From a virus, in the IMG/VR virus record IMGVR_UViG_3300033143_000900, positions 1 through 28,504 of that record: a DNA stretch of 28,504 nucleotides; one strand, written 5' to 3'. Positions within the stretch are counted from its first letter, which is position 1, and each line of letters begins with the position of its first letter. Below, in pieces: positions 4,297 to 28,430 of the stretch. Position numbers and translations under genes: made by a program. Below the pieces are notes generated by a model, which worked only from the letters and a program-made list of their open reading frames with translations, was not told the origin of the DNA and made no database searches.

Positions 4297-4362
4297 GTTT
4301 ATTCTTCTCCTGTCATATTATATGTCTGTAACAATGTGGTTACAGTCAGGGATTTTATAACA

Positions 4363-4371
4363 GTATTTATC
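4363..4371 (-). promoter_or_regulatory. T4-type late promoter (GATAAATAC)
   Basis: On the minus strand the box GATAAATAC is followed by CTGTT and then ATA. The predicted +1 is A4358, about 62 bases upstream of the GTG of the 1421-aa fibre gene. It sits just downstream of the terminator at 4391-4419, so the fibre gene has its own late transcription unit. Confidence 0.8.
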
Positions 4372-4389
4372 TACAAACGGAAAAGATAT

Positions 4390-4601
4390 AAAAAAACAGG
4401 TAGCGAACGCTACCTGTTTGTCGTACTCATCATTATTTCTAATATAATTTCTATATAACACTCAACTCGAATAAGCCTTAGCATGAGCGTTTAGACATAA
4501 GTTGCATACCTGCAATCTGCTAAGAGAACTACGTTTGCTGGTAGTGGCCCCCACTTAATAATTAGTATCAAGGCGTGGGGAACTCTTGTATTACTATCTA
4601 T
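4390..4601 (-). ncRNA. Candidate structured small RNA, about 210 nt
   Basis: No credible coding frame lies between the endonuclease gene and the fibre gene. On the minus strand this stretch begins 7 bases after a sigma70-type promoter and ends in a strong intrinsic terminator. The predicted fold has an outer stem 4583-4587 with 4522-4526. It encloses one arm of two stacked helices (4576-4580 with 4549-4553; 4567-4572 with 4554-4559) and a second hairpin (4541-4545 with 4528-4532), so a three-way junction. A following 7-bp stem (4518-4524 with 4477-4483) encloses the hairpin 4502-4506/4511-4515. It competes with the outer stem for bases 4522-4524, so the RNA could switch or stack. I do not recognise the family. 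It could be a trans-acting small RNA or a host-RNA mimic; the late promoter downstream of the terminator argues against a simple riboswitch for the fibre gene. Confidence 0.65.
4391..4419 (-). terminator. Intrinsic terminator of the small-RNA unit
   Basis: The arms 4394-4405 and 4408-4419 are perfect 12-base inverted complements around a 2-base centre; in practice a tight loop with an 11-bp stem. On the minus strand the stem is followed by a run of T (plus-strand A run 4391-4396) and TATATC. It ends minus-strand transcription from 4601 just before the fibre-gene promoter. Confidence 0.88.
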
Positions 4602-4607
4602 TTATTA

Positions 4608-4636
4608 ACTATACACTAGTATACGGCGATTGTCAA
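4608..4636 (-). promoter_or_regulatory. Sigma70-type promoter (TTGACA-17-TATAGT)
   Basis: On the minus strand the -35 box TTGACA is at 4636-4631 and the -10 box TATAGT at 4613-4608, separated by exactly 17 bases. The -35 box overlaps the TGA stop of the endonuclease gene. It is the only near-consensus host-type promoter I found in a region otherwise served by GATAAATA late promoters. A weaker AATAAATA at 4598-4605 could add late transcription. Confidence 0.75.
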
Positions 4637-5283
4637 GCAATTTTCTGCTTCGCCCATCGCTTTTTAGCTGCCTCGGATATTTTTCTCTTAGTTTCTTCAG
4701 AGTGTGTTCTTCCTGTATTTCGAGTATGCCCCTTAGCTAATTGTGATATTTTCCGCTTTGCTTCTTCTGAATGTTTATATTTGCCTACATTCCCCTTATT
4801 CGGAGAAATACGTCCTTTATTAGCTTCTGAAATCTTCGCTAATGTTTCTTCAGAATGTTTGCGGCCTCTACTGGCAAGGCCAATCTTTCTTTTAGTTTCT
4901 TCAGTATGCTGTTTCCCTTTCATCCAAGGTACGTTTCCCTTAAGAGAAGATGATATTTTTGATCTAGTTTCTGTTGATCTAATACAACCTGTTCGATCAT
5001 AATGATCCCAGCCGCCATATCCTCCTTGTTTGATATTATACGTATCCTTGCGTGATACAAATAATTCGTTCACAATCTCTGCTTCTTTAGCAAACATTTT
5101 CTCAGAGGTATCGAATAAATGCAAGATATCCTTTGTAAAATTTTCTTGACCGTATTTCCTATATGCTAACGGAAGCAGTTTACCAGAACCCATATAACCG
5201 TCGTCAACATTGCTAGTTTGATGGCAGCCTATATAGATTTTTTGATTTATATTATTTGTTATCTGGTAGATAATGTGATTCAT
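4633..5283 (-). CDS. GIY-YIG homing endonuclease with NUMOD3 repeats (216 aa)
   Basis: The N-terminal nuclease domain shows the paired tyrosine motif, IIY at residues 4-6 and YIG at 17-19, then a conserved GSGK, the glutamate-rich helix AKEAEIVNE (candidate catalytic Glu) and DTYNIKQGG. The C-terminal half is about five NUMOD3-type DNA-binding repeats with the core HSEETK.KIS.A.KG, near residues 103-210. It is predicted to cut specific phage DNA and spread its own gene. I start at ATG 5281-5283, because the longer frame begins with TTG and the GIY domain begins at residue 4 of the ATG form. There is no ribosome binding site: AATAAATA lies exactly five bases before the ATG, which predicts a leaderless mRNA. 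It is a paralogue of the 24158-24733 gene. Confidence 0.85.
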   Translation of the reverse strand: MNHIIYQITNNINQKIYIGCHQTSNVDDGYMGSGKLLPLAYRKYGQENFTKDILHLFDTSEKMFAKEAEIVNELFVSRKDTYNIKQGGYGGWDHYDRTGCIRSTETRSKISSSLKGNVPWMKGKQHTEETKRKIGLASRGRKHSEETLAKISEANKGRISPNKGNVGKYKHSEEAKRKISQLAKGHTRNTGRTHSEETKRKISEAAKKRWAKQKIA

Positions 5284-5288
5284 ACTAA

Positions 5289-5296
5289 TATTTATT
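5289..5296 (-). promoter_or_regulatory. Late promoter giving a leaderless endonuclease mRNA
   Basis: Minus-strand AATAAATA is followed by TTAGT and then the ATG at 5283. With the T4 late geometry (box ending at -6), +1 is the A of the ATG. It is divergent from the plus promoter at 5306-5314. Confidence 0.6.
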
Positions 5297-5305
5297 GCTT
5301 TTGTA

Positions 5306-5314
5306 GATAAATAC
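5306..5314 (+). promoter_or_regulatory. Late promoter of the 5336-10454 operon
   Basis: GATAAATAC is followed by a leader containing AAAGGAGT just before the ATG at 5336. It is the only promoter seen ahead of the four plus-strand structural genes. Confidence 0.85.
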
Positions 5315-5335
5315 AATATAATAAAGGAGTAACAA

Positions 5336-6547
5336 ATGCCTAAAATTTCCCTTTGGTCCCCAGTCCAAGGTAACGATTACAACTACGTTGACAGAATAGC
5401 TCGCGAATATATCGAGCTAGGAGGCACAGGTGTGTTTATTCACAAGTACCTCGGACCGAAAGAACAAGTGGGAGATGATAATAAGAGTGATGCTGAAGAT
5501 GGCGTCGAAACTACTCCTCTGAATATCGGTGACATTTTATTCTTAGAGAATCGTGATCGCAAGTATGCTCCTGACATCATTGAGATGCGCGGTGCATACA
5601 CAATTAGCGACACAGATTTTGACTTGACCCAGTTCGGTATCTTTCTCACAGACGATACAATCTTTATGTCGTTTCATCTCAACGAATGTGTTGAGCGTTT
5701 AGGTCGTAAGCTTATGTCTGGAGACGTATTAGAATTGCCTCACTTGAGAGAGTTTGCTTTACTAGATGATGATAAAGGCGCAGTCAATAGATTCTATGTA
5801 ATCGAAGATGCTTCTCATAGTGCAGAAGGCTACGGCCCTCGTTGGTGGTCTCACATGTGGAGAGTACGTGCGAAGCAGATGCCAGCAAGCACAGAGTATC
5901 AAGATATATTAGATCGTCTAACAGGCGATGGTCAGCAATTAGAGTCACAGCCTCCAGGAGATGATGACTGTTGCGATGAGACTATCGGTGATGTTATTAG
6001 CGATAAGAACAAGCTAGACGATATTGCAGATGCTATCATAGAAGAAGCAGCATTGAATGTTCCGTATGATCCGTTGTCGTATGATGCAGCACATTTATAT
6101 CTATACATTGATCCTGATACGCAACAACATCAGCTTATTTGGTTTAAGACAGGAGACGGAATTCCTCCAAATGGATTACCTCTGGCGGGTGATGGAAATA
6201 CATTTCCTTCTTCTCTAGTGAACGGCGATTACTTTTTGCGAACAGATTTTAGTAGCCCTGTGTTGTATCAAAAGCAAGGAACTACATTTAAGAAGATAGA
6301 AGTCGATCAACGTAAGCTACCGTGGACGGCAGCGAATCAGTTACTTGATACGTTTATCGACAATGACAATATTACAACTAATGATGATGGCACAACTGAG
6401 CCTCAGCGTCAGGCACTTAGTAAGACAGTGCTTGCACGACCAAAGACAGAAGACAGGTCACCTCCATTGAGAACTCCTAAAGATCCTAATGGACTTGATT
6501 TAGATTCTGAAACTTTTACACCAGACTTTGGTGACGAATTTGAATAA
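5336..6547 (+). CDS. T4-type virion structural protein, possibly neck (gp14-like), 403 aa
   Basis: The first 200 residues carry DRIAREYIELGGTGVFIHKYLG, LFLENRDRKY, DFDLTQFGIFL and GDVLELPHLREF. I associate this pattern with a conserved structural protein of T4-like marine phages, whose layout resembles the gp14 neck-protein family. The last 200 residues are acidic and low in recognisable motifs (CCDE near residue 214; DPDTQQHQLIWFKTGDG near 252), and may form a separate module. The start is ATG with a strong AAAGGAGT site 22 bases after the late promoter. It is first in an operon with 6560-7213, 7217-10117 and 10119-10454. Its position two genes before a gp15-like gene supports a neck or tail-completion role, but the gp14 assignment is an inference. 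Confidence 0.6.
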   Translation: MPKISLWSPVQGNDYNYVDRIAREYIELGGTGVFIHKYLGPKEQVGDDNKSDAEDGVETTPLNIGDILFLENRDRKYAPDIIEMRGAYTISDTDFDLTQFGIFLTDDTIFMSFHLNECVERLGRKLMSGDVLELPHLREFALLDDDKGAVNRFYVIEDASHSAEGYGPRWWSHMWRVRAKQMPASTEYQDILDRLTGDGQQLESQPPGDDDCCDETIGDVISDKNKLDDIADAIIEEAALNVPYDPLSYDAAHLYLYIDPDTQQHQLIWFKTGDGIPPNGLPLAGDGNTFPSSLVNGDYFLRTDFSSPVLYQKQGTTFKKIEVDQRKLPWTAANQLLDTFIDNDNITTNDDGTTEPQRQALSKTVLARPKTEDRSPPLRTPKDPNGLDLDSETFTPDFGDEFE

Positions 6548-7216: not shown

Positions 7217-10117
7217 GTGAGTACGTTTTTCTACGATGAGCAACTTAGGCGTTATATATTACAGTTCTTGAGAATCTTTTCAGATTACTCAATTGAAATT
7301 CCGCCTGATGAAAATGGTACGCGAGTGCAGAAACGTGTGCCTATTCGTTATGGAGACATGCAGAGACAAGTAGCGCAAATATTGAAAGAGAACTCAGAAA
7401 ATGTAACGCTATCTGCGCCAGCTATGAGCGGCTACATCACAGGCATTGATTTAGCGAGTGATCGTAGACAAGACCCAATGAATGTTAATCCTGTACGTGC
7501 AATGGAGAGAGTTTACGATAAAGAAACTGGACTTTATGAATCTGATCTAGGCAATCGTTATACCATTGAACGCTACATGCCTGTTCCATATAATCTTACA
7601 ATGAATTTAGATATTTGGACAACTAACACAACTGACAAGTTTCAGCTTTGGGAGCAGATAATGGTTGTTTTTCCTCCGTCAGTTCAAATACAAATAAATG
7701 ACAACCCACTCGATTGGAGCGCCATCACTGAGATCGAACTTATTGATATGAATTTTTCGAGCAGAGGGGTTCCTCAGGGTTCAGTCAGTGCAAATGATTT
7801 TTCTACATTTACGTTTAAAGTACCGATCTGGATAAATGCTCCATCTAAGGTTAAACGACAAACTATCATAGAACAGATCGTAACTTCTGTATATGATGTT
7901 GATATTAACAGCATAGATACTGACATTTTTGATCCGTTACATAGTGCATTTAGTGAACTTGACCAAACGATTGTCTCACCTGGCAATTATCGCATTGATG
8001 TTAGTGCTATTGATTCTACGACAAGTCGTATAGAATTATTAGATGAGTACGGAGCTAGCGATGCTACTCTATCTTGGCAGTCTTTGTTTGCTGCATACGG
8101 AGCGATTGATCCCGCAACTACTACATTAACATTAAAAAGCAACGATGATATTGAAACAACAAGCGGTGATGTTCTCGGTTCTTTAGAAGTTAGTCCCACA
8201 GAACAAAATATTGCAACATTTGTTGTAGATCAAGATACATTACCTAGCACTATCGGTAGCGGTGCCGTCACTGATATTATTAATCCGTCTGTTAGCTTCC
8301 CTGGAGGCACGTTGCCTATAGCAGCAACAGGACAGCGATACTTGTTATTGACAAATGAGCAAGACGGCGGAGGAGAATCATTGATAGCAAATGACGGCCA
8401 AGGGAATAATCCTTGGGGAAGTATTACTGCCTTTGAAAATGACATCATTGAGTACAATGGCACGAACTGGTTTGTTTCATTAGATGGTGCTACTGTATCT
8501 ACACCACAGTATGTCGTTAATATAGCTGATTCACAGCACTATAAATTTGATGATGACGAATGGATTTTTACTTATCTAGGAACATTCAATCCTGGCTTTT
8601 GGCGTGTGAACACTTCACCAGTCAGTATTGCTATTGATCCGCCGCAAATTGATGCGCCAACCGCAAGAACAAGTATAAGTGGATCAAGCATTTATGATGA
8701 ACAAATACGTAGATATATATTACAATTTTTGCGTATTTTTGCTGATCTTAAAATTGAAACTCCACCAGACGAAAATAATATACAAGCACAGAAACGTGTG
8801 CCTATTCGTTATGGGGATATGCAGAGGCAAGTAGCGCAAATATTGAAAGAGAACTCAGAAAATGTAACGCTATCTGCGCCAGCTTTGAGCGGTTATATTA
8901 CAAGTATTGGTTTAGCAAGTGATCGTAGACAAGACCCAATGAATGTTAATCCTGTACGTGCTATCGAACGTACATATAATACGCAGACTGGATTGTACGA
9001 ACCAACTCAGGGCAATCGTTATACCATTGAACGTTACATGCCTGTTCCATACACACTAACAATGAATCTTGATTTATGGACAACTAATACAACTGACAAG
9101 TTTCAGCTTTGGGAGCAGATAATGGTTGTATTTAACTCATCTGTTCAACTACAAACAAATGATAATCCTTTAGATTGGGGATCAATTACAGAAATTGAGC
9201 TAGCAGACATGAATTGGTCGAGCCGCGGCGTGCCGCAAGGCTCAGTCAGTGCAAATGATTTTTCTACATTTACCTTCAAGGTGCCTATCTGGATAAGTCC
9301 GCCAGCAAAGGTTAAACAGCAGACTCTTATTGAGCAGATTGTAACTTCTATCTATGATGTTGATATTAGCAGCATAGACACTGATATTTTTAATCCTATT
9401 CATAGTGCATTTAATTCTCTCGAACAAGTTATAGTATCTCCTGGCAATTATCGCATTGATGCTAGTGCTATTGATTCTACGATAAGCCGTATAGAATTAT
9501 TAGATGAATATGGAAACAGCAATTCACAATTAAGTTGGGGGTCATTGTTTGCTGCATATAGTACTATTGATCCAATCACAACTACTCTTATATTAAAGAG
9601 CGGCGACAACATAGAAGAAACAGCAGGCGATATACTAGGCACGTTAGAGATTAGCAATACAGAACAAAATATTGCAACGTTTGTGATAGATGCAGATACG
9701 TTGCCTACGACAATTGGTAGTGGTCCTGTAACGGATCTTATTAATCCATCTGTTAGCTTTCCTGGAGGATTGCTGCCTGCAGCGACAACTGGGCAGAGAT
9801 ACTTATTGCTAACAAACGAACAAGATGGCGGTAATGAATCATTAATAGCGGATGACGGACATGGCAATAATCCATGGGGAAATCTTACTGCTTTTGAAAA
9901 TGACATCATTGAATACGATGGCACGAATTGGGTTGTCTCGTTTGATGCGCTAACTGTTAGTGCGCCTCAATATGTTGTTAACGTATCTGATTTGCAGCAT
10001 TATAAGTTTGACGGTGACCAATGGATCTTTACTTATCTAGGAACATTCAATCCTGGCTTTTGGCGTGTAGCTCTAACATCTGAATTGCCGCCGATCCAAA
10101 TAGGAGAAATAACTTAA
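7217..10117 (+). CDS. 15: gp15-like tail-sheath terminator with internal tandem duplication (966 aa)
   Basis: Two copies of one unit lie in a single frame: residues 1 to about 487 and about 488-966. Each has a gp15-type half with FYDEQ.RRYILQFLRIF, KRVPIRYGDMQRQVAQILK, NRYTIERYMPVPY.LTMNLD, WTTNTTDKFQLWEQIMVVF, NDNPLDW and a SSRGVPQGS loop. Each then has a second, beta-rich half with TGQRYLLLTNEQDGG, NDIIEY.GTNW and a YLGTFNPGFWRV end. The first half matches the T4 gp15 family, which caps the tail tube and sheath and joins tail to head. Family members usually carry one such domain (T4 gp15 is about 270 aa). It starts at GTG 7217 after GAAGGA. No internal stop or strong internal start separates the copies. 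Confidence 0.8.
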   Translation: MSTFFYDEQLRRYILQFLRIFSDYSIEIPPDENGTRVQKRVPIRYGDMQRQVAQILKENSENVTLSAPAMSGYITGIDLASDRRQDPMNVNPVRAMERVYDKETGLYESDLGNRYTIERYMPVPYNLTMNLDIWTTNTTDKFQLWEQIMVVFPPSVQIQINDNPLDWSAITEIELIDMNFSSRGVPQGSVSANDFSTFTFKVPIWINAPSKVKRQTIIEQIVTSVYDVDINSIDTDIFDPLHSAFSELDQTIVSPGNYRIDVSAIDSTTSRIELLDEYGASDATLSWQSLFAAYGAIDPATTTLTLKSNDDIETTSGDVLGSLEVSPTEQNIATFVVDQDTLPSTIGSGAVTDIINPSVSFPGGTLPIAATGQRYLLLTNEQDGGGESLIANDGQGNNPWGSITAFENDIIEYNGTNWFVSLDGATVSTPQYVVNIADSQHYKFDDDEWIFTYLGTFNPGFWRVNTSPVSIAIDPPQIDAPTARTSISGSSIYDEQIRRYILQFLRIFADLKIETPPDENNIQAQKRVPIRYGDMQRQVAQILKENSENVTLSAPALSGYITSIGLASDRRQDPMNVNPVRAIERTYNTQTGLYEPTQGNRYTIERYMPVPYTLTMNLDLWTTNTTDKFQLWEQIMVVFNSSVQLQTNDNPLDWGSITEIELADMNWSSRGVPQGSVSANDFSTFTFKVPIWISPPAKVKQQTLIEQIVTSIYDVDISSIDTDIFNPIHSAFNSLEQVIVSPGNYRIDASAIDSTISRIELLDEYGNSNSQLSWGSLFAAYSTIDPITTTLILKSGDNIEETAGDILGTLEISNTEQNIATFVIDADTLPTTIGSGPVTDLINPSVSFPGGLLPAATTGQRYLLLTNEQDGGNESLIADDGHGNNPWGNLTAFENDIIEYDGTNWVVSFDALTVSAPQYVVNVSDLQHYKFDGDQWIFTYLGTFNPGFWRVALTSELPPIQIGEIT
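7328..8630. repeat. gp15 duplication, copy 1
   Basis: This segment aligns with DNA 1461 bp (487 codons) downstream. The best-conserved stretch (7328 onward, against 8789 onward) is almost identical for about 100 bp. Other parts have diverged to moderate identity, so the duplication is not recent but may still be subject to conversion. Confidence 0.85.
8789..10091. repeat. gp15 duplication, copy 2
   Basis: This is the second unit of the in-frame duplication at a 1461-bp offset from copy 1. The last codons of both units encode YLGTFNPGFWRV. Confidence 0.85.
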
Positions 10118-10118
10118 T

Positions 10119-10454
10119 ATGGATTTTCAAATAAATTTACCGATTTCGCCTATTAACTTTTCTGCATTCTTTAAGAGCAAGTCTAGTTCACTATCTTATG
10201 CAATCGACGGCACGCCGCCTCCTGGACTAACTTTGAATCCTGTTACGGGTTTGATGAACGGCGTACCTGTAACAATTGGGGTGTTTAGTGATATTCGTAT
10301 TCTTGCTACAGACGTACGGCAAAAATATGTCTTATCAAATACATTTACTATGAGTGTATTTGCAATTGATACGAGAGTCATTACAATCACAGTAGATAAT
10401 GATGTATTTCAGGTACAAGATGTATTTGAAATTAAGATTAAATCTTATAACTAA
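10119..10454 (+). CDS. Small Ig-like (He_PIG-type) virion protein (111 aa)
   Basis: The central stretch SYAIDGTPPPGLTLNPVTG followed by a GVP turn and a VTIG.F.DIRILATD strand matches the putative-Ig (He_PIG) pattern common in phage adhesins. The protein is beta-rich throughout, with no signal peptide or membrane segment. It starts at ATG 1 base after the stop of the gp15-like gene, with TAGGAGA about 12 bases upstream. Its last 4 bases overlap the end of the convergent repeat-protein gene, whose own C-terminus also carries a He_PIG-like motif. A fibre or adhesion accessory role is inferred. Confidence 0.65.
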   Translation: MDFQINLPISPINFSAFFKSKSSSLSYAIDGTPPPGLTLNPVTGLMNGVPVTIGVFSDIRILATDVRQKYVLSNTFTMSVFAIDTRVITITVDNDVFQVQDVFEIKIKSYN

Positions 10455-12682
10455 AGTACTGTACCGCTTATCACCCCTGTATTTACATTAATTCTTAGTC
10501 CGTCTGGCAAATTCAAACTGCTATAGAGTAATTTTTGATTGGTTCGATCCTGAAAAAATACTGATACATCTATATTAACTATTTCGCCTGACTCAAAAAC
10601 AAAATTAGGAATTTCAGATAACAAAATTGGTTCAAATACTAGACTACCACTTTGGGGCTGTAACGGTATTTCTAGAGTTTTGTTAAACTGTCCGCTTGAG
10701 TGTACAATTTGAAAGAAACTAGCAATAGCATAGCTTGTCTGAGAAGCTGCTAGGGACTTAGTGAACGTGCCGATGCCATTTGTAGTAGGTAGTATGAAAC
10801 CACTTGAAACTTGTGTTGGAGTTGCTAATGTCTTAGTGAAGACACCTGTGCCAGTTATAACTGATGAGCCAGTAGCAGATTGAGTTGGAGTAGCTAGTGT
10901 CTTAGTGAATACTCCTACACCATCAACAAATATTGATGCGCCAGAGCTAACTTGTGTAGGTGTAGCTAGTGTCTTAGTAAAGACACCTGTACCTCTTGCT
11001 CCAACGAAACCAATACTAATTTGTGTTGGGGTTGCTAAGTCTTTAGTAAATACACCTGTGCCTATAGCTCCTGCTTTACCAGCAGCAGATTGAGTTGGGT
11101 TTGCTAAGTCTTTAGTAAATACACCTGTACCTACAACACCTACGAAACCAGAGCTAACTTGTGTTGGGGTTGCTAAGTCTTTAGTAAATACACCTGTACC
11201 TACAACACCTACGAAACCAGAGCTAACTTGTGTCGGCGTTGCTAGTGTCTTAGTGAATACTCCTACACCATCAGTGATAATAGCTGCACCAGAGCTAACT
11301 TGAGTAGGGGTTGCTAAGTCTTTAGTAAAGACACCTGTACCAATTGCTCCAGCTTTACCAGAACTAACTTGTGTTGGAGTTGCTAATGTCTTAGTGAAGA
11401 CACCTGTGCCAGTTATAACTGATGAGCCAGTAGCAGATTGTGTAGGTGTAGCAAGTGTCTTAGTAAAGACACCTACCCCATCTACGAATATTGATTCACC
11501 AGAGCTAACTTGTGTAGGAGTAGCTAGTGTCTTAGTGAATACGCCTACACCGTCAATTAAGAATGAGTCGCCAGAGCTAACTTGCGTAGGAGTGGCAAGC
11601 GTCTTAGTGAATACGCCGACGCCAATAACAGCAGAGGTACCAGTGCTGACTTGTGTTGGAGTTGCTAATGTCTTAGTAAATACACCTACGCCAATAGCAC
11701 CAGCCGTACCTGTTGCGATTTGAGTTGGGGTTGCTAGTGTTACATCAAATGCACCTGTGCCAAGTGCTCCGACATAACCATCAGAGGATTGAGTCGGAGT
11801 AGCAAGGTCTTTTGTAAATACACCAGTACCAATAGCACCAGCCGTACCACTTGAAACTTGTGTTGGGGTTGCTAATGTTTTAGTGAATACGCCTACACCA
11901 ATTGCACCAGCTTTACCAGTTGCAACTTGTGTCGCTGTTAAGTCTTTAGTAAATACACCAGTGCCAGTGACGCCAACTATGCCAGAACTGACTTGTGTTG
12001 GGGTTGCTAGTGTTACATCAAATGCACCTGTGCCATCAACAAATATTGATGCGCCAGAGCTAACTTGTGTAGGTGTAGCAAGTGTCTTAGTAAATACACC
12101 TGTTCCATCAATGAGGAAGGCTTCGCCTGAACTAACTTGAGTTGGAGTAGCAAGCGTCTTAGTAAATACACCTACACCAATTGCACCTGCCGTACCAGTG
12201 CTGACTTGTGTTGGAGTAGCAAGCGTCTTAGTGAATACACCCACACCAATAGCACCAGCCGTACCACTTGAAACTTGTGTTGGGGTTGCTAACGTCTTAG
12301 TAAATACACCTACACCAATTGCACCTGCCGTACCAGTGCTGACTTGTGTAGGAGTGGCAAGAGTCTTAGTGAATACGCCAACGCCAATAGCTCCAGCCGT
12401 ACCTGTTGCGATTTGAGTTGGGGTTGCTAATGTCTTAGTGAATACACCTACACCAATAGCACCAGCTTTACCAGTTGCGGATTGTGTTGGTGTTGCTAAT
12501 GTCTTAGTAAATACGCCGACACCAATGGCGCCTGCTGTACCTGTGCTGACTTGTGTTGGGGTAGCTAAGTCTTTAGTAAATACACCAGTACCGTCTGCGG
12601 TTTGCTTAGGGAATAGACGTAAGCTTCTACGACGTAGAATTCGTTCTAAATAACGAGTTTTTCTAAAGATGCCTCTGGACAT
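10451..12682 (-). CDS. Fibre-like protein with about 27 tandem 23-aa repeats (743 aa)
   Basis: A short basic N-terminus (RKTRYLERILRRRSLRLFPK, residues 7-26) is followed from about residue 30 to 650 by about 27 copies of GVFTKTLATPTQVSSG plus a variable 7-residue linker (TAGAIGV, SIFVDGT, SVITGT and others). One copy is shortened (DLTATQ). The last 90 residues end in PDGLRINVNTGVISGTV, a He_PIG-like motif that stops early. The regular 23-residue period suggests a beta-helix or stacked beta-hairpin fibre; function is unknown. Start ATG at 12680-12682 follows GGGAGATAGGA. No canonical late promoter lies directly upstream, so it may be read through from 13300. Confidence 0.75.
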   Translation of the reverse strand: MSRGIFRKTRYLERILRRRSLRLFPKQTADGTGVFTKDLATPTQVSTGTAGAIGVGVFTKTLATPTQSATGKAGAIGVGVFTKTLATPTQIATGTAGAIGVGVFTKTLATPTQVSTGTAGAIGVGVFTKTLATPTQVSSGTAGAIGVGVFTKTLATPTQVSTGTAGAIGVGVFTKTLATPTQVSSGEAFLIDGTGVFTKTLATPTQVSSGASIFVDGTGAFDVTLATPTQVSSGIVGVTGTGVFTKDLTATQVATGKAGAIGVGVFTKTLATPTQVSSGTAGAIGTGVFTKDLATPTQSSDGYVGALGTGAFDVTLATPTQIATGTAGAIGVGVFTKTLATPTQVSTGTSAVIGVGVFTKTLATPTQVSSGDSFLIDGVGVFTKTLATPTQVSSGESIFVDGVGVFTKTLATPTQSATGSSVITGTGVFTKTLATPTQVSSGKAGAIGTGVFTKDLATPTQVSSGAAIITDGVGVFTKTLATPTQVSSGFVGVVGTGVFTKDLATPTQVSSGFVGVVGTGVFTKDLANPTQSAAGKAGAIGTGVFTKDLATPTQISIGFVGARGTGVFTKTLATPTQVSSGASIFVDGVGVFTKTLATPTQSATGSSVITGTGVFTKTLATPTQVSSGFILPTTNGIGTFTKSLAASQTSYAIASFFQIVHSSGQFNKTLEIPLQPQSGSLVFEPILLSEIPNFVFESGEIVNIDVSVFFQDRTNQKLLYSSLNLPDGLRINVNTGVISGTVL
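10742..12594. repeat. Minisatellite: about 27 units of 69 bp
   Basis: The units are in frame and encode the 23-residue repeat. Near-identical neighbours alternate with more diverged units, and pairs of units recur as blocks: the TPTQSATGSSVITG and SSGASIFVDG units each appear at two distant places. This is the signature of unequal crossing-over or slippage. Confidence 0.92.
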
Positions 12683-18038: not shown

Positions 18039-19199
18039 TTAGAAGAATGTTACGCCTGTGATGCCGACCTGAGATAGGTAGTCTGCTGCGTTACCTAGAG
18101 AGTTAGCTGTGTTAGATAGCTCTTGGTAGCCGTAACGAGTCATAAAGCTTACTACTGGCTCGAAAGTAGTTGGATCCATTACTGGTCCAGTAATGTAAGG
18201 GCAATAGAACGCCGCTGCATCTGTCTCTGTTGGGCCTTTGTAACCAATTAGTACTGGCTGATCGTCTGCCTGGTACTGATCGGAGTAAACCTTCATGCTG
18301 TTATTCAAAGTACCTACAAACTTTGTGTTTGTTGGTGCTTCGAACGTACCTTCTGTAGTACGAGCGAACGAAGAAGTTGTAGCACTCTGTAGGATCGTTA
18401 GAGCCTGCGGAGATACAACTGCCCAGTTTGCTGCGCCACGACGAGTACGTGCTGCAACTAGGTTAGCTTGCTGGTTGATTAGTACAGCTAGTGCTGCATG
18501 TTCGTCACCAACATATGTTGCTGTACCAGATACGGCCGTTTGATCGAACGTTACTGGTGCTGCGCCAGATAGTGCGCGTAGGTTGTTAATCAACTCTTGG
18601 TCGATTTCAACTGTAATCTCTTGGGCTAGTGCTTGCATGATTTCAGCTTCAATGTCGATGCCATGAACTGACTGTGCGTCCTGTGCTGCCTCAAAAGTCC
18701 AACGAGCAGATAGCTTACGTGTGCGAGCTTCTACTGTCTCTTTGAGGATCTGGATGGATAGACGGTTACCAGCTGCGCCTTCAAGTGCTGCTGTTCCCGC
18801 TGCTGCTCCGCCTGGTGGTACTGCTTCATCACCTGCGTAACCGCGTGCTAGATCAAACGGGCCAAGTGCTTCTGTACCCGCTGTGACACCGCCTGCTGAA
18901 TCAGCATAACGAACACGAAGCGTGTGGATTTGACCCACAGGACCCGTCATAGGCTGTACGCCTAGAATCTCGTTAGCAATAACAGTTGGCATTACACGAC
19001 GAATCAAAGGTAGCATAACCTTGTTCAATGTTGCAATGTTACCAGCACCTGTGCCACCCGCTGTAGCGGTTTCGCGAAGTTGCTGTTTGCGTGTGTTCTC
19101 AAGAACCACGCCGAGGGATTCACGACGATTTCCAGAAAGTCCTTCTAAAAGTGCTTCCTTAGTCGCTGCCCACTTACTTTCAAATAGCTTATCGGCCAT
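18039..19199 (-). CDS. 23: Major capsid protein (gp23-like), 386 aa
   Basis: The N-terminus MADKLFESKWAATKEALLEG and the stretch IATLNKVMLPLIRRVMPTVI, followed by ANEILGVQPMTGPVGQI, are characteristic of T4-type gp23 in marine phages. It forms the hexamers of the head shell. A gp21-type cleavage site is visible at LRE, residues 41-43, which would remove a 43-residue propeptide. It is shorter than T4 gp23 (521 aa) because the T4 insertion region is absent. Start ATG with AAGGAGA seven bases upstream. A CTAAATA box at 19225-19231 could be a degenerate late promoter, though it also encodes the end of gp22. Confidence 0.93.
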   Translation of the reverse strand: MADKLFESKWAATKEALLEGLSGNRRESLGVVLENTRKQQLRETATAGGTGAGNIATLNKVMLPLIRRVMPTVIANEILGVQPMTGPVGQIHTLRVRYADSAGGVTAGTEALGPFDLARGYAGDEAVPPGGAAAGTAALEGAAGNRLSIQILKETVEARTRKLSARWTFEAAQDAQSVHGIDIEAEIMQALAQEITVEIDQELINNLRALSGAAPVTFDQTAVSGTATYVGDEHAALAVLINQQANLVAARTRRGAANWAVVSPQALTILQSATTSSFARTTEGTFEAPTNTKFVGTLNNSMKVYSDQYQADDQPVLIGYKGPTETDAAAFYCPYITGPVMDPTTFEPVVSFMTRYGYQELSNTANSLGNAADYLSQVGITGVTFF

Positions 19200-22437: not shown

Positions 22438-24158
22438 TATACTTCATCTCCTCCAGCTTCAAGATCAACTTCACCACCAGGGAGGTCAGCACCATCACCT
22501 AAGTCTTCATCGCCCATATCCTCTTCGCCTTCTACATCGTCAAAGTCTTCGAAGTCTCCGCCGCCTACTCCTACTGATCTTAGGTCAGCTACAGCACCAC
22601 TGTCTTCTGTTGCGTGAGGTACTGATTGTTCTTGACGCCATAGTTTTTCGTTCTCAGCAATCTCAGTCTCATTCAAGCCTAAGTAACGTTTCATCATCCA
22701 TCGCTTACTCATGTAAGGTGTGTCTTTCATGCTGGCAAACAAGTTAGCGTATGCTGCGTCGATTTCGATTTGACGATATTCTGAGAAGTTCTGCGGCTCA
22801 CATAGCTCTAGTGCGAAAATACTGCTATCAATCGTAAAGCCTCTGTGCTTGAGGAATAACTTAAATTCTTCATCAAGTGTTGGCATGACTTGACGCTGAT
22901 GACGTTGACATACTTTCGAGAATCTGAATTCTTGAATGAATGCTGTGCCAACTCGTCCATCATTGTATGCTGAACTACCATCGTCTGGACCTGTAGGCAA
23001 ATAGCTGCTAGGTACGCCGAGGCCACGTAGCATCTTGTTGTTGAAGTATTTAAGATCATCAATCTCACCCAAGTTATCACCACCTGGGAGTGTCTCTACT
23101 TTAGAACCACGACCATCTGCTGTAGCAGCAAAGAAGTAATCTTCAAGCATTGACATTGGATTGTAAGCTGAATCAGTAATACTCTCGCCGCCGCCTGTTC
23201 GTGATGGAATACGCTTCTGCTGTACTTCATAACGAATGCGTTCTAGGTATTGTGCTGCTTTGTTAGGCGGCATTGTACCTACGTCAATATAGAATATACG
23301 ACGTTCTGGTGCACGGTGAACACGATAGATTAGAATGCTGTCTTCAAGTAGTTCTTTCTGCTTGTATACTTTGAAGATCGTTTCAAGAATACTGATACCG
23401 AAAGGCCATGAACTGTTCATGCCTTCTGTCATACTTAGCTGTACAACGTGCTGTCCATCAACAGGGAACGCTTCAGCGTTTGAGTACTGCGAACCTGATG
23501 TGCTAATCATTCCTGACGCTGAACCAGTAGAGTAGTTAGCTTGGCCAGTATACGGCGCATTAGGGAAGATTGTATCTTGAGCATTGTAGCCCATCTGTGT
23601 CTTCTTAAATGTATTAGTAGCTGTCAACGATTGAAGATTTAAGTCAAGTTCGCGAATGTAATACGCTTCGATTGCTTTACCTTCTGATTCATTGACTAGT
23701 ACTTTTTCTACAGTTGAAGGATCAACCCAATGTAGTTTGAATGTCTCTGGATCACGTATTAAGAACTGATCTCCATACATGAGTGTAGAACGAAATAGAC
23801 GCCATATGCGTTTAGGAAAGTCATTTAGATTAGACCACTGTCGTAGTGCTGCAACTAGAATTTCTTTCTCTGATGTGCTAGCATCTTTCGTATACTTAAT
23901 ATCAAACGGAGTCTGTGTTGTTACATTGACTGCTGTTGAGAAGTCTGCAATAGTGTCCATAGCTGCTGATACTTCATGGTCAAGATCCATCTGTTCATAC
24001 TGCATATAGCGCATGAGCCTATTAGGAGGGCCTTGATAGAATTCAGGAAGCCAACTAGAAAATTTGTTTAGTGCTGTTGCACCACCAGAACTGCTTCCAG
24101 GTGAAGATTGTTGTGGCAAAACCGAGTTAACCGGCTTAAAAAACTTAGTCCAAGCCAT
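22437..24158 (-). CDS. 20: Portal vertex protein (gp20-like), 573 aa
   Basis: The twelve-subunit ring at the head vertex, through which DNA enters and the tail attaches. Diagnostic segments include YEQMDLDHEVSAAMDTIADF (residues 49-68), LMYGDQFLI, YRVHRAPERRIFYIDVG, NKMLRGLGVPSSYLPTGPDD and LFLKHRGFTID. Length is slightly above T4 gp20 (524 aa), mainly an acidic Gly-rich tail from about residue 520 (DFEDFDDVEGEEDMGDEDLG). ATG 24156-24158 overlaps the stop of the upstream GIY-YIG gene (TAATG), and its AAGGAGA site lies inside that gene. Confidence 0.93.
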   Translation of the reverse strand: MAWTKFFKPVNSVLPQQSSPGSSSGGATALNKFSSWLPEFYQGPPNRLMRYMQYEQMDLDHEVSAAMDTIADFSTAVNVTTQTPFDIKYTKDASTSEKEILVAALRQWSNLNDFPKRIWRLFRSTLMYGDQFLIRDPETFKLHWVDPSTVEKVLVNESEGKAIEAYYIRELDLNLQSLTATNTFKKTQMGYNAQDTIFPNAPYTGQANYSTGSASGMISTSGSQYSNAEAFPVDGQHVVQLSMTEGMNSSWPFGISILETIFKVYKQKELLEDSILIYRVHRAPERRIFYIDVGTMPPNKAAQYLERIRYEVQQKRIPSRTGGGESITDSAYNPMSMLEDYFFAATADGRGSKVETLPGGDNLGEIDDLKYFNNKMLRGLGVPSSYLPTGPDDGSSAYNDGRVGTAFIQEFRFSKVCQRHQRQVMPTLDEEFKLFLKHRGFTIDSSIFALELCEPQNFSEYRQIEIDAAYANLFASMKDTPYMSKRWMMKRYLGLNETEIAENEKLWRQEQSVPHATEDSGAVADLRSVGVGGGDFEDFDDVEGEEDMGDEDLGDGADLPGGEVDLEAGGDEV

Positions 24159-24733
24159 TAGATTATCTCCTTCTTAACTTCATATGCAGTTCGCCTTGCA
24201 GCACTCCACGGCTTACCTTTATTGCCACAACCATTTTTATTATTCATTTTGCCTTTAGACATTTTCTGTCGTGTTTCTTGTGATACGGTTTTACCTTTGT
24301 GTACTTCGGATAATAATGCTTTGTGTTCATCAGTGATTACAGCACCTGTTCTCGGATGATTCTCTTTCTTCTTAAACAGTTCTTTCTTAATTTCTGATAT
24401 TTGTGCTTTGATTTCAGCGGAATGTGTTTTACCATAAAAAGTATTATTCTTGCCTGCGGCACCGCCCTTGCCGCCAACTCTTAAATTATAGGTATCTGAT
24501 CGTGCAACAAAATCTTCATTTACTAGTTCCACTTCTTTTGCAACCATCTGTTCTTCAGAATCATACACAAACAAAATTTTCTTTGTGAAGTTTTCAATGC
24601 CAGATTTTTTAATAGCGCGAGAAAGATGCAACCCCGATCCTAAATATTCATCATTTAAGTCATCAGTCGTGTGCATACCTATATAAATTTTGCTGTTGAT
24701 ATTGTTAGTTGTTTGATAAACCGTATAATTCAT
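24158..24733 (-). CDS. GIY-YIG homing endonuclease upstream of the portal (191 aa)
   Basis: VY (residues 5-6) and YIG (17-19) form the GIY-YIG core, followed by GSGLHLSRAIKKSGIENF, VAKEVELVNEDFVARSDTYN (candidate catalytic Glu) and a GGKGG turn. NUMOD3-like repeats follow (HSAEIKAQISEIKK, TDEHKALLSEVHKGK, SQETRQKMSKGK). It is a paralogue of the 4633-5283 gene. I start at ATG 24731-24733; the longer frame begins with TTG and runs through the promoter box. The ATG is exactly five bases after GATAAATA, predicting a leaderless mRNA. Its end overlaps the portal start, so portal translation depends on DNA inside this mobile gene. Confidence 0.85.
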   Translation of the reverse strand: MNYTVYQTTNNINSKIYIGMHTTDDLNDEYLGSGLHLSRAIKKSGIENFTKKILFVYDSEEQMVAKEVELVNEDFVARSDTYNLRVGGKGGAAGKNNTFYGKTHSAEIKAQISEIKKELFKKKENHPRTGAVITDEHKALLSEVHKGKTVSQETRQKMSKGKMNNKNGCGNKGKPWSAARRTAYEVKKEII

Positions 24734-24737
24734 ACCC

Positions 24738-24746
24738 TTATTTATC
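24738..24746 (-). promoter_or_regulatory. Late promoter of the endonuclease-portal unit
   Basis: GATAAATA (24746-24739) is followed by AGGGT and ATG 24733. It is the only late promoter seen directly upstream of the portal gene. Confidence 0.75.
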
Positions 24747-24777
24747 AACAACTAGTCGTTTTTACTGAGAGTTTTGG

Positions 24778-27926: not shown

Positions 27927-28430
27927 ATGGAAATATACGCAGCCACAAATAGAAAGAGTAATAAATCGTATATAGGTTATACGATGTATACACTGAATGA
28001 AAGACGCGATCAACATTATAGAGATGCCCGCGGCGGCTCTGATTATCATTTCCATAGGGCATTACGAAAATATAAAAAGACTGATTGGATTTGGGTAACA
28101 CTAACAACTTGTAATAATAAAGATCAATCACTTAACGAAGAAATAAAACTCATAGCAGAGTATGGCACATATGAAAATGGATACAATAGTACACCTGGCG
28201 GCGAAGGCGGAGGCGGTCCTACATCAGAAGCAACTAAGAGACTTATATCTAAAACATTAACAGGATCTAAACAGACACAAGAACATATTAATAATAAAGC
28301 AGCATCACACAGGGGAACGATACATGGTCCTCATACAGAAACAACAAAAGCAAAAATATCAGCGAGCAAGAAAGGTGTTGCATGGACAGAAGCTCGCTGG
28401 GAAGCACACAGACAGAGGCAAATAACATGA
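27927..28430 (+). CDS. GIY-YIG homing endonuclease (167 aa)
   Basis: EIY (residues 2-4) and YIG (15-17) are followed by an Arg pair (26-27) as in classical GIY-YIG nucleases, SLNEEIKLIAEYG (candidate catalytic Glu 71/72) and NGYNSTPGGEGGGG. The C-terminus has NUMOD3-like repeats (TSEATKRLISKTLTGSK, HTETTKAKISASKKG). It is less similar to the other two GIY-YIG genes than they are to each other. It sits 3 bases after the frameshift ORF with no clear ribosome binding site, and its TGA overlaps the next ATG (ATGA). No GATAAATA box precedes it, unlike the other two. Confidence 0.82.
   Translation: MEIYAATNRKSNKSYIGYTMYTLNERRDQHYRDARGGSDYHFHRALRKYKKTDWIWVTLTTCNNKDQSLNEEIKLIAEYGTYENGYNSTPGGEGGGGPTSEATKRLISKTLTGSKQTQEHINNKAASHRGTIHGPHTETTKAKISASKKGVAWTEARWEAHRQRQIT

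Follow-up and report, generated by a model that had tools for sequence, protein, structure and literature searches.

The stretch of DNA under study (28,504 nucleotides, hereafter the window) is, as judged from its gene content, a 28.5-kb segment from a large T4-like phage, since its major head protein (18042–19199) shows 74% full-length identity to the counterpart in Pseudomonas jumbo phages such as PA5oct, and the gene at 5336–6544 belongs to phrog_11591, a virion structural protein. The motif ATAAATA, the core of T4-type late promoters, occurs 16 times in the window, compared to 7.2 expected occurrences. Among the other genes, an ORF at 7217–10117 (+) encodes a 966-aa tail sheath stabiliser-like protein that is internally duplicated, with a 300-base stretch recurring 1461 bases further on at 81% identity and two stretches matched to phrog_11196, and a 743-aa ORF at 10451–12682 (−) consists mostly of repeats of a unit resembling GVFTKTLATPTQVSSG. 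Three GIY-YIG/NUMOD3 homing endonuclease genes are found in the 28.5 kb, one of them beside the locus described here (Table 1) and the others at 24158–24751 (−) and 27927–28430 (+).

Divergent from the phrog_11591 gene lies a non-coding region that very probably constitutes a real small-RNA gene, with a promoter, a structured core and an intrinsic terminator of its own, followed by the leader of a tail-fibre-like gene. The coordinates of these features are collected in Table 1.

Table 1. Features of the RNA locus and its immediate surroundings (positions in the window; helix strands are written in the direction of transcription).
Feature	Position	Strand	Sequence and remarks
GIY-YIG/NUMOD3 homing endonuclease ORF (phrog_314)	4633–5316	−	Separates the RNA promoter from the divergent virion gene
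−35 box	4631–4636	−	TTGACA; conserved in 5/5 distinct homologues
−10 box	4608–4613	−	TATAGT; spacer 17, also in relatives
Predicted RNA-gene transcript	4393–4601	−	Predicted start ~7 bases past the −10 box, predicted end in the T run
Conserved structured core (model R1)	4440–4580	−	135.6 bits, E 2.5e-25; the window is among the 5 sequences that make up the model
Hairpin PA	4549–4580	−	CCCCAC 4580–4575 / GTGGGG 4554–4549; loop and sequence variable between relatives
Helix P1	4504–4548	−	GC 4548–4547 / 4505–4504 and TACC 4543–4540 / GGTA 4510–4507
Helix P2	4512–4532	−	GTAG 4532–4529 / TTGC 4515–4512; 19/20 cells paired
Pseudoknot helix P3	4477–4524	−	CTTAGC 4524–4519 / GCTAAG 4482–4477; crosses P4
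Helix P4	4458–4490	−	ACGCTCA 4490–4484 / TGAGTGT 4464–4458; 34/35 cells paired
Small hairpin P5	4465–4476	−	GCTT 4476–4473 / GAGT 4468–4465
Intrinsic terminator	4394–4419	−	AAACAGGTAGCGTTCGCTACCTGTTT and T run; 11 bp stem, 4-base loop
Tail-fibre-like gene leader	4298–4376	−	Late-promoter-like ATAAATA, hairpin CTGTAAC/GTTACAG, GACAGGAG; separate element

Searching IMG/VR for the divergent gene yielded 13 loci, and in eight of them (L003–L010) the RNA is present with its position and orientation unchanged. Two others (L011 and L014) have a different sequence at this position, and the remaining three (L012, L013 and L015) start inside or at the divergent gene and are uninformative on the presence of the RNA. 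One core sequence, ~150 bases in length, is common to L005–L008 and another to L009 and L010; together with the window, the eight contigs make nine records that hold five distinct sequences from about three lineages. Between the window and L003, identity is 80% across an alignment of 367 bases. When model R1 was searched against 84 whole records besides the window, many of them fragmentary so that absence of the RNA there is not proof of loss, eight matches were obtained at E <1e-20, all of them to clade members. Matches to G020 and G022 (12.4 bits each) were rejected as chance-like, and a match in PA5oct (190593–190705, 18.4 bits), which overlaps annotated genes, was also taken as chance. Exact-pattern scans of IMG/VR produced no member outside the known clade; the extra matches failed model R1, or had the wrong spacing or a coding-like character together with poor nhmmer scores. 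With blastn, only short partial matches to phage records were obtained for the RNA. Model R1 had no match in 200 bacterial genomes of one phylum or in three others, in a search run without a positive control and with stricter filters for the 200.

According to the initial annotation, the region encoded a structured small RNA not described before, equipped with a sigma70-type promoter and a terminator of its own, and both signals were confirmed. The promoter was kept in all five distinct sequences, where TTGACA stands upstream of the core and is followed after 17 bases by a −10 box that matches at 5/6 positions, the −10 boxes of the relatives reading TATACT, TATTAT, TATCAT and TATTAT. An additional, weaker promoter of the same type is present in L009. 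In L004 and L005, the distance from the end of the −10 box to the core is 103–106 bases versus 57 in the window, which places their promoter ~46–49 bases farther from the core and implies a different 5' end. By count alone, promoter-like sites are not above chance in the 20 kb scanned (57 versus 49.3 expected from shuffles). The terminator heads the list of 21 terminator-like sites in the same 20 kb, and a terminator hairpin follows the core in all five distinct sequences at the same position, with stem sequences that are unrelated or altered in L003, L004/L005 and L009. Its stems and the helices of the core occupy separate positions. The predicted RNA would be ~210 bases long. A promoter and an intrinsic terminator placed around a conserved non-coding sequence are what is expected of a phage small-RNA gene.

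Considered on the window sequence alone, the finding would be weak, because the promoter count is at shuffle level and the folding energy of the RNA region has a z of only −2.06, with 7 of 200 shuffles as low. Comparative support was obtained by counting pairs on a MAFFT alignment built without structure, which comprised the five distinct sequences, 23 pairs and five helices. Pairing was found in 98.3% of the 115 cells, and in 25–36% when the 3' partners were slid by 1–3 columns, a test that is biased toward the fold since the structure was derived from the same five sequences. Two-sided changes were present in 7 of the 23 pairs (shuffle mean 3.5; reached in 2 of 500 shuffles), and none of 500 shuffles reached the covariation score of 0.387. 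Further pair types showed no excess (13 versus 13.6 in shuffles). A column-permutation null was also used, in which relatedness was kept, the best helix was sought anywhere, and 132 of the 161 columns were used after dropping those with more than one gap. Under this null, helices as good as P4 (≥7 bp, ≥4 two-sided pairs) arose in 2 of 1000 permutations, and two helices with ≥6 bp and ≥2 two-sided pairs each in 3 of 1000. Compensatory base changes beyond chance, as expected of a structured RNA, are therefore present in this set of only five distinct sequences, and several of the two-sided changes are probably single events common to relatives. The compensatory changes indicate that the present fold is under selection.

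The strongest helices are P4, with two-sided changes in four of its seven pairs, and P3, in which 30 of 30 cells are paired and two of six pairs have changed on both sides. P1 is likewise paired in 30 of 30 cells and has one two-sided pair (A-U to G-C), by which TACC/GGTA becomes TGCC/GGCA in relatives. P2 is the weakest helix, with no two-sided change. The small hairpin P5 appears in relatives as ACTC/GAGT, GCTC/GAGT and GCCC/GGGT, with L004 and L005 pairing only after a one-column shift. As P3 begins in the P1/P2 loop and ends inside P4, covariation supports a pseudoknot as the conserved fold. The CCCCAC/GTGGGG pairing of the initial annotation held up as hairpin PA, a contiguous helix of 6–7 pairs beside the core in all five sequences, although in L003 the longest helix differs from the aligned pairing; given single-sequence shuffle p values of 0.037–0.27 (0.27, 0.18, 0.048, 0.037 and 0.062), this hairpin is likely rather than proven.

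Other parts of the fold first drawn for this region have to be revised. Its 7-bp stem (4518–4524/4477–4483) is real and conserved, and corresponds to P3 plus one pair. The nested three-way junction, in turn, is not a conserved topology, as the 7-bp stem forms a pseudoknot with the second conserved stem. An outer stem (4583–4587/4522–4526), supposed to compete with the 7-bp stem as a switch, can form in the window and, with one G-U pair, in L003, but not in L004, L005 and L009, which lack the AAGAG strand. With AAGAG/CTCTT present in only two of the five distinct sequences and missing from three, the switch has no comparative support, and a riboswitch with two competing stems was rejected. A further stem, ACTAC/GTAGT (4545–4541/4532–4528), is paired in 92% of cells, shows a C-A mismatch in two sequences and no two-sided change, and was not accepted as it conflicts with the better-supported P1 and P2. 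The region had also been called non-coding, with relatives that keep a protein frame and lose the pairs named as the contrary outcome; the opposite was observed, as the pairs are kept and no ORF is common to the homologues, and a coding region was rejected on this ground. With a covarying core in five sequences and no Rfam match, the proposal of an undescribed structured small-RNA gene stands on firmer ground than when it was first made, with a different fold, and we are highly confident that the structured RNA gene is real and independently transcribed.

The endonuclease ORF next to the promoter raises the question of a common origin. Its TGA stop codon falls within the TTGACA box, and introns often house homing endonuclease genes, so that the RNA could be a by-product of the endonuclease, either an intron remnant or an endonuclease-associated RNA. 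This reading is hardly credible, since L003, L004, L005 and L009 have the RNA without the endonuclease and no intron or HEARO match was found in Rfam; an origin of the HEARO or intron type is refuted for the clade by these relatives. The distance from the −35 box to the divergent gene is 700 bases in the window versus 41, 52, 52 and 78 in L003, L004, L005 and L009, respectively. As these endonuclease-free relatives keep the RNA at a promoter-to-gene distance of 41–78 bases, the endonuclease is an insertion beside an older RNA gene and no part of it.

On the other side of the RNA, the leader of the tail-fibre-like gene follows in the window, L003 and L005, and another ORF intervenes in L004 and L009. 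The leader hairpin lies immediately upstream of the ribosome-binding site. The leader is 86–94% identical in seven relatives (L004–L010) and is also present in L003; it resembles Rfam RF03012 (Mu-gpT-DE) with a score of 26.6 bits (E 4.8e-4), below the gathering score, and the L005 leader matches the same family with 32 bits (E 1.2e-5). The RNA terminator precedes the tail gene, which lies on the same strand, and the competing stem does exist in the window and L003, as would suit a cis-acting leader or attenuator of the tail-fibre gene that works by alternative pairings. Such an attenuator is nevertheless very unlikely, given that the competing stem is missing from three of the five distinct sequences, the terminator stems are separate from the core helices, and the tail gene has a late-promoter-like leader of its own past the terminator. 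More generally, because the gene downstream of the RNA varies between relatives, being a different one in L004 and L009, a cis role for one gene appears unlikely.

The same position was then considered in more distant T4-like phages. An alignment-based search kept 80 relatives, and 30 loci were scanned for tRNAs. A tRNA-Ser(gct) gene on the same strand, 67–73 bases from the divergent gene, was found in 13 of the 30 (L249, L252, L255, L258, L263, L266, L270, L273, L275, L276, L285, L287 and L299), in every case preceded by a near-perfect promoter made of TTGACA, 17 bases and TATAAT or TATACT. Strand, position and promoter type are thus the same as for the RNA of the window. The other 17 loci include four with the new RNA (L003, L004, L005 and L009), PA5oct and Atu_ph07; in L261 and L268 a tRNA-Ser gene is present farther from the divergent gene. 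A host-type promoter followed by a stable RNA is accordingly a recurrent arrangement here, and the locus of the window appears to be a stable-RNA slot, which supports the view that the RNA is the product of a stable-RNA gene. Early expression can be proposed from the type of promoter and by analogy with the tRNA genes that occupy this slot in relatives.

A shared slot is no demonstration of descent from a tRNA, because neither ARAGORN nor Rfam finds one: ARAGORN predicted no tRNA or tmRNA in the window or in L003, L004, L005 and L009, and Rfam gave no tRNA at E up to 10. The slot gene of the distant phages is a genuine tRNA-Ser, whereas the window RNA is without tRNA features. The position and the promoter type that the RNA shares with the tRNA-Ser genes would be accounted for by a tRNA that had decayed or changed greatly and stayed in the slot without a function of its own; beside the negative tRNA searches, the compensatory changes, which indicate selection on the present fold, make this reading very improbable.

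The fold appears to resemble no catalogued RNA family. In the scan of Rfam 15 (4227 families) that the initial annotation had called for, no family reached its gathering score in the window, nor in L003, L004, L005 and L009, and permissive scans gave no match to the core at E<0.05. Type III antitoxin RNAs and phage pseudo-antitoxins are pseudoknotted and can act on a protein during phage infection. The window RNA shares the pseudoknot with type III antitoxins but has neither their short tandem repeats nor a recognised toxin gene adjacent, the only array detected in the tandem-repeat check being a 24-base AT-rich one at 4435–4458. GOLLD and ROOL are associated with phages and tRNAs. They are presented in PMC12286853 as ornate bacterial RNAs with function unassigned, in which they are like the window RNA; they are much larger, and the window RNA has no Rfam match. 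Structured RNAs are also found in T4-like cyanophages, among them manA and wcaG, cis-regulatory by the description in PMC2864571 and PMC9964418; unlike these, the window RNA has a promoter and a terminator of its own, and its neighbours vary. Closer in kind are the phage-encoded sRNAs tabulated in PMC12197685 (PreS, sar, misc_4 of phage phiR1-37 and others), which are likewise small non-coding phage genes, some of similar length. Rfam links the window RNA to no described one, and it differs from them as a covarying pseudoknot seen in this analysis in metagenomic phages only. The literature, as covered by titles and abstract openings with most subscription papers and all preprints outside the scope, contained no account of the window RNA.

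Taken together, the best explanation is a phage small-RNA gene with a host-type promoter and a pseudoknotted product, to which we assign a probability of roughly 65%. Host RNA polymerase with the housekeeping sigma factor would read the promoter, away from the divergent virion gene, and transcription would stop at the intrinsic terminator, releasing a free RNA. As supported by covariation, its core folds into hairpin PA and the P1/P2 stem, the loop of which pairs through P3 with the side of the second stem (P4/P5) to complete the pseudoknot. In this compact form the RNA may act in trans, binding a host or phage protein and altering its activity before the late genes are on. This last step is proposed tentatively, and we would put it a little short of even odds. 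Action in trans seems most likely because it is the fold that is conserved, rather than an open seed or a frame, and because the downstream gene changes. Protein binding is favoured since the conserved stretches are mostly paired, with GGGCCACTRCCA and GGYATGC largely within helices, and since no seed complementary to its own contig stood out: exact complementarity within the window extends over 11 bases at most, versus 11–13 in 20 shuffles. Antisense action on its own contig was rejected on that count. An antisense sRNA that pairs with a host or phage mRNA, its folded core merely stabilising it, would fit the AU-rich unpaired stretches between core and terminator and the several known phage sRNAs that act on mRNAs according to the table of PMC12197685. 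The helical location of GGGCCACTRCCA and GGYATGC, together with a longest complement at shuffle level, renders this unlikely.

Within the protein-binding explanation, a special case is an RNA that inhibits, or acts as a decoy for, a host enzyme of defence or RNA processing, such as a mimic of an antitoxin or a nuclease-binding RNA. Phage pseudo-antitoxin RNAs are a known precedent, and the compact pseudoknot, a promoter immediately readable by the host polymerase and the confinement of the RNA to one phage clade, as is often the case with arms-race genes, would agree with such a role; with no tandem antitoxin-type repeats and no Rfam match to antitoxin or AbiF RNAs, we regard this special case as doubtful, somewhat more so than the antisense alternative. 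A wider speculation, to which we give slightly more credit than to either although it is still improbable, is that a new class of pseudoknotted RNA took over the tRNA promoter slot and captures a host defence or RNA-handling protein before phage proteins appear. If true, a slot-captured RNA class would be a ready-made tool for host takeover, made at once by the host polymerase.

Annotation of phage genomes is nearly limited to proteins and tRNAs, and a covarying, independently promoted RNA that one clade of large T4-like phages conserves in a slot otherwise occupied by tRNA genes suggests that there are untapped RNA functions in infection. The slot itself, recognisable as a TTGACA-17-TATAAT promoter behind the divergent phrog_11591 gene, allows a simple search for other stable RNAs in these phages. 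In L014, a distant relative that has a different sequence at the position of the RNA, two intergenic units of ~180 bases (8479–8860) without a match in Rfam stand before the same divergent gene; they have the motifs AACCCAGAGAGAACTC and CATGGAGG in common, and may be another RNA element.
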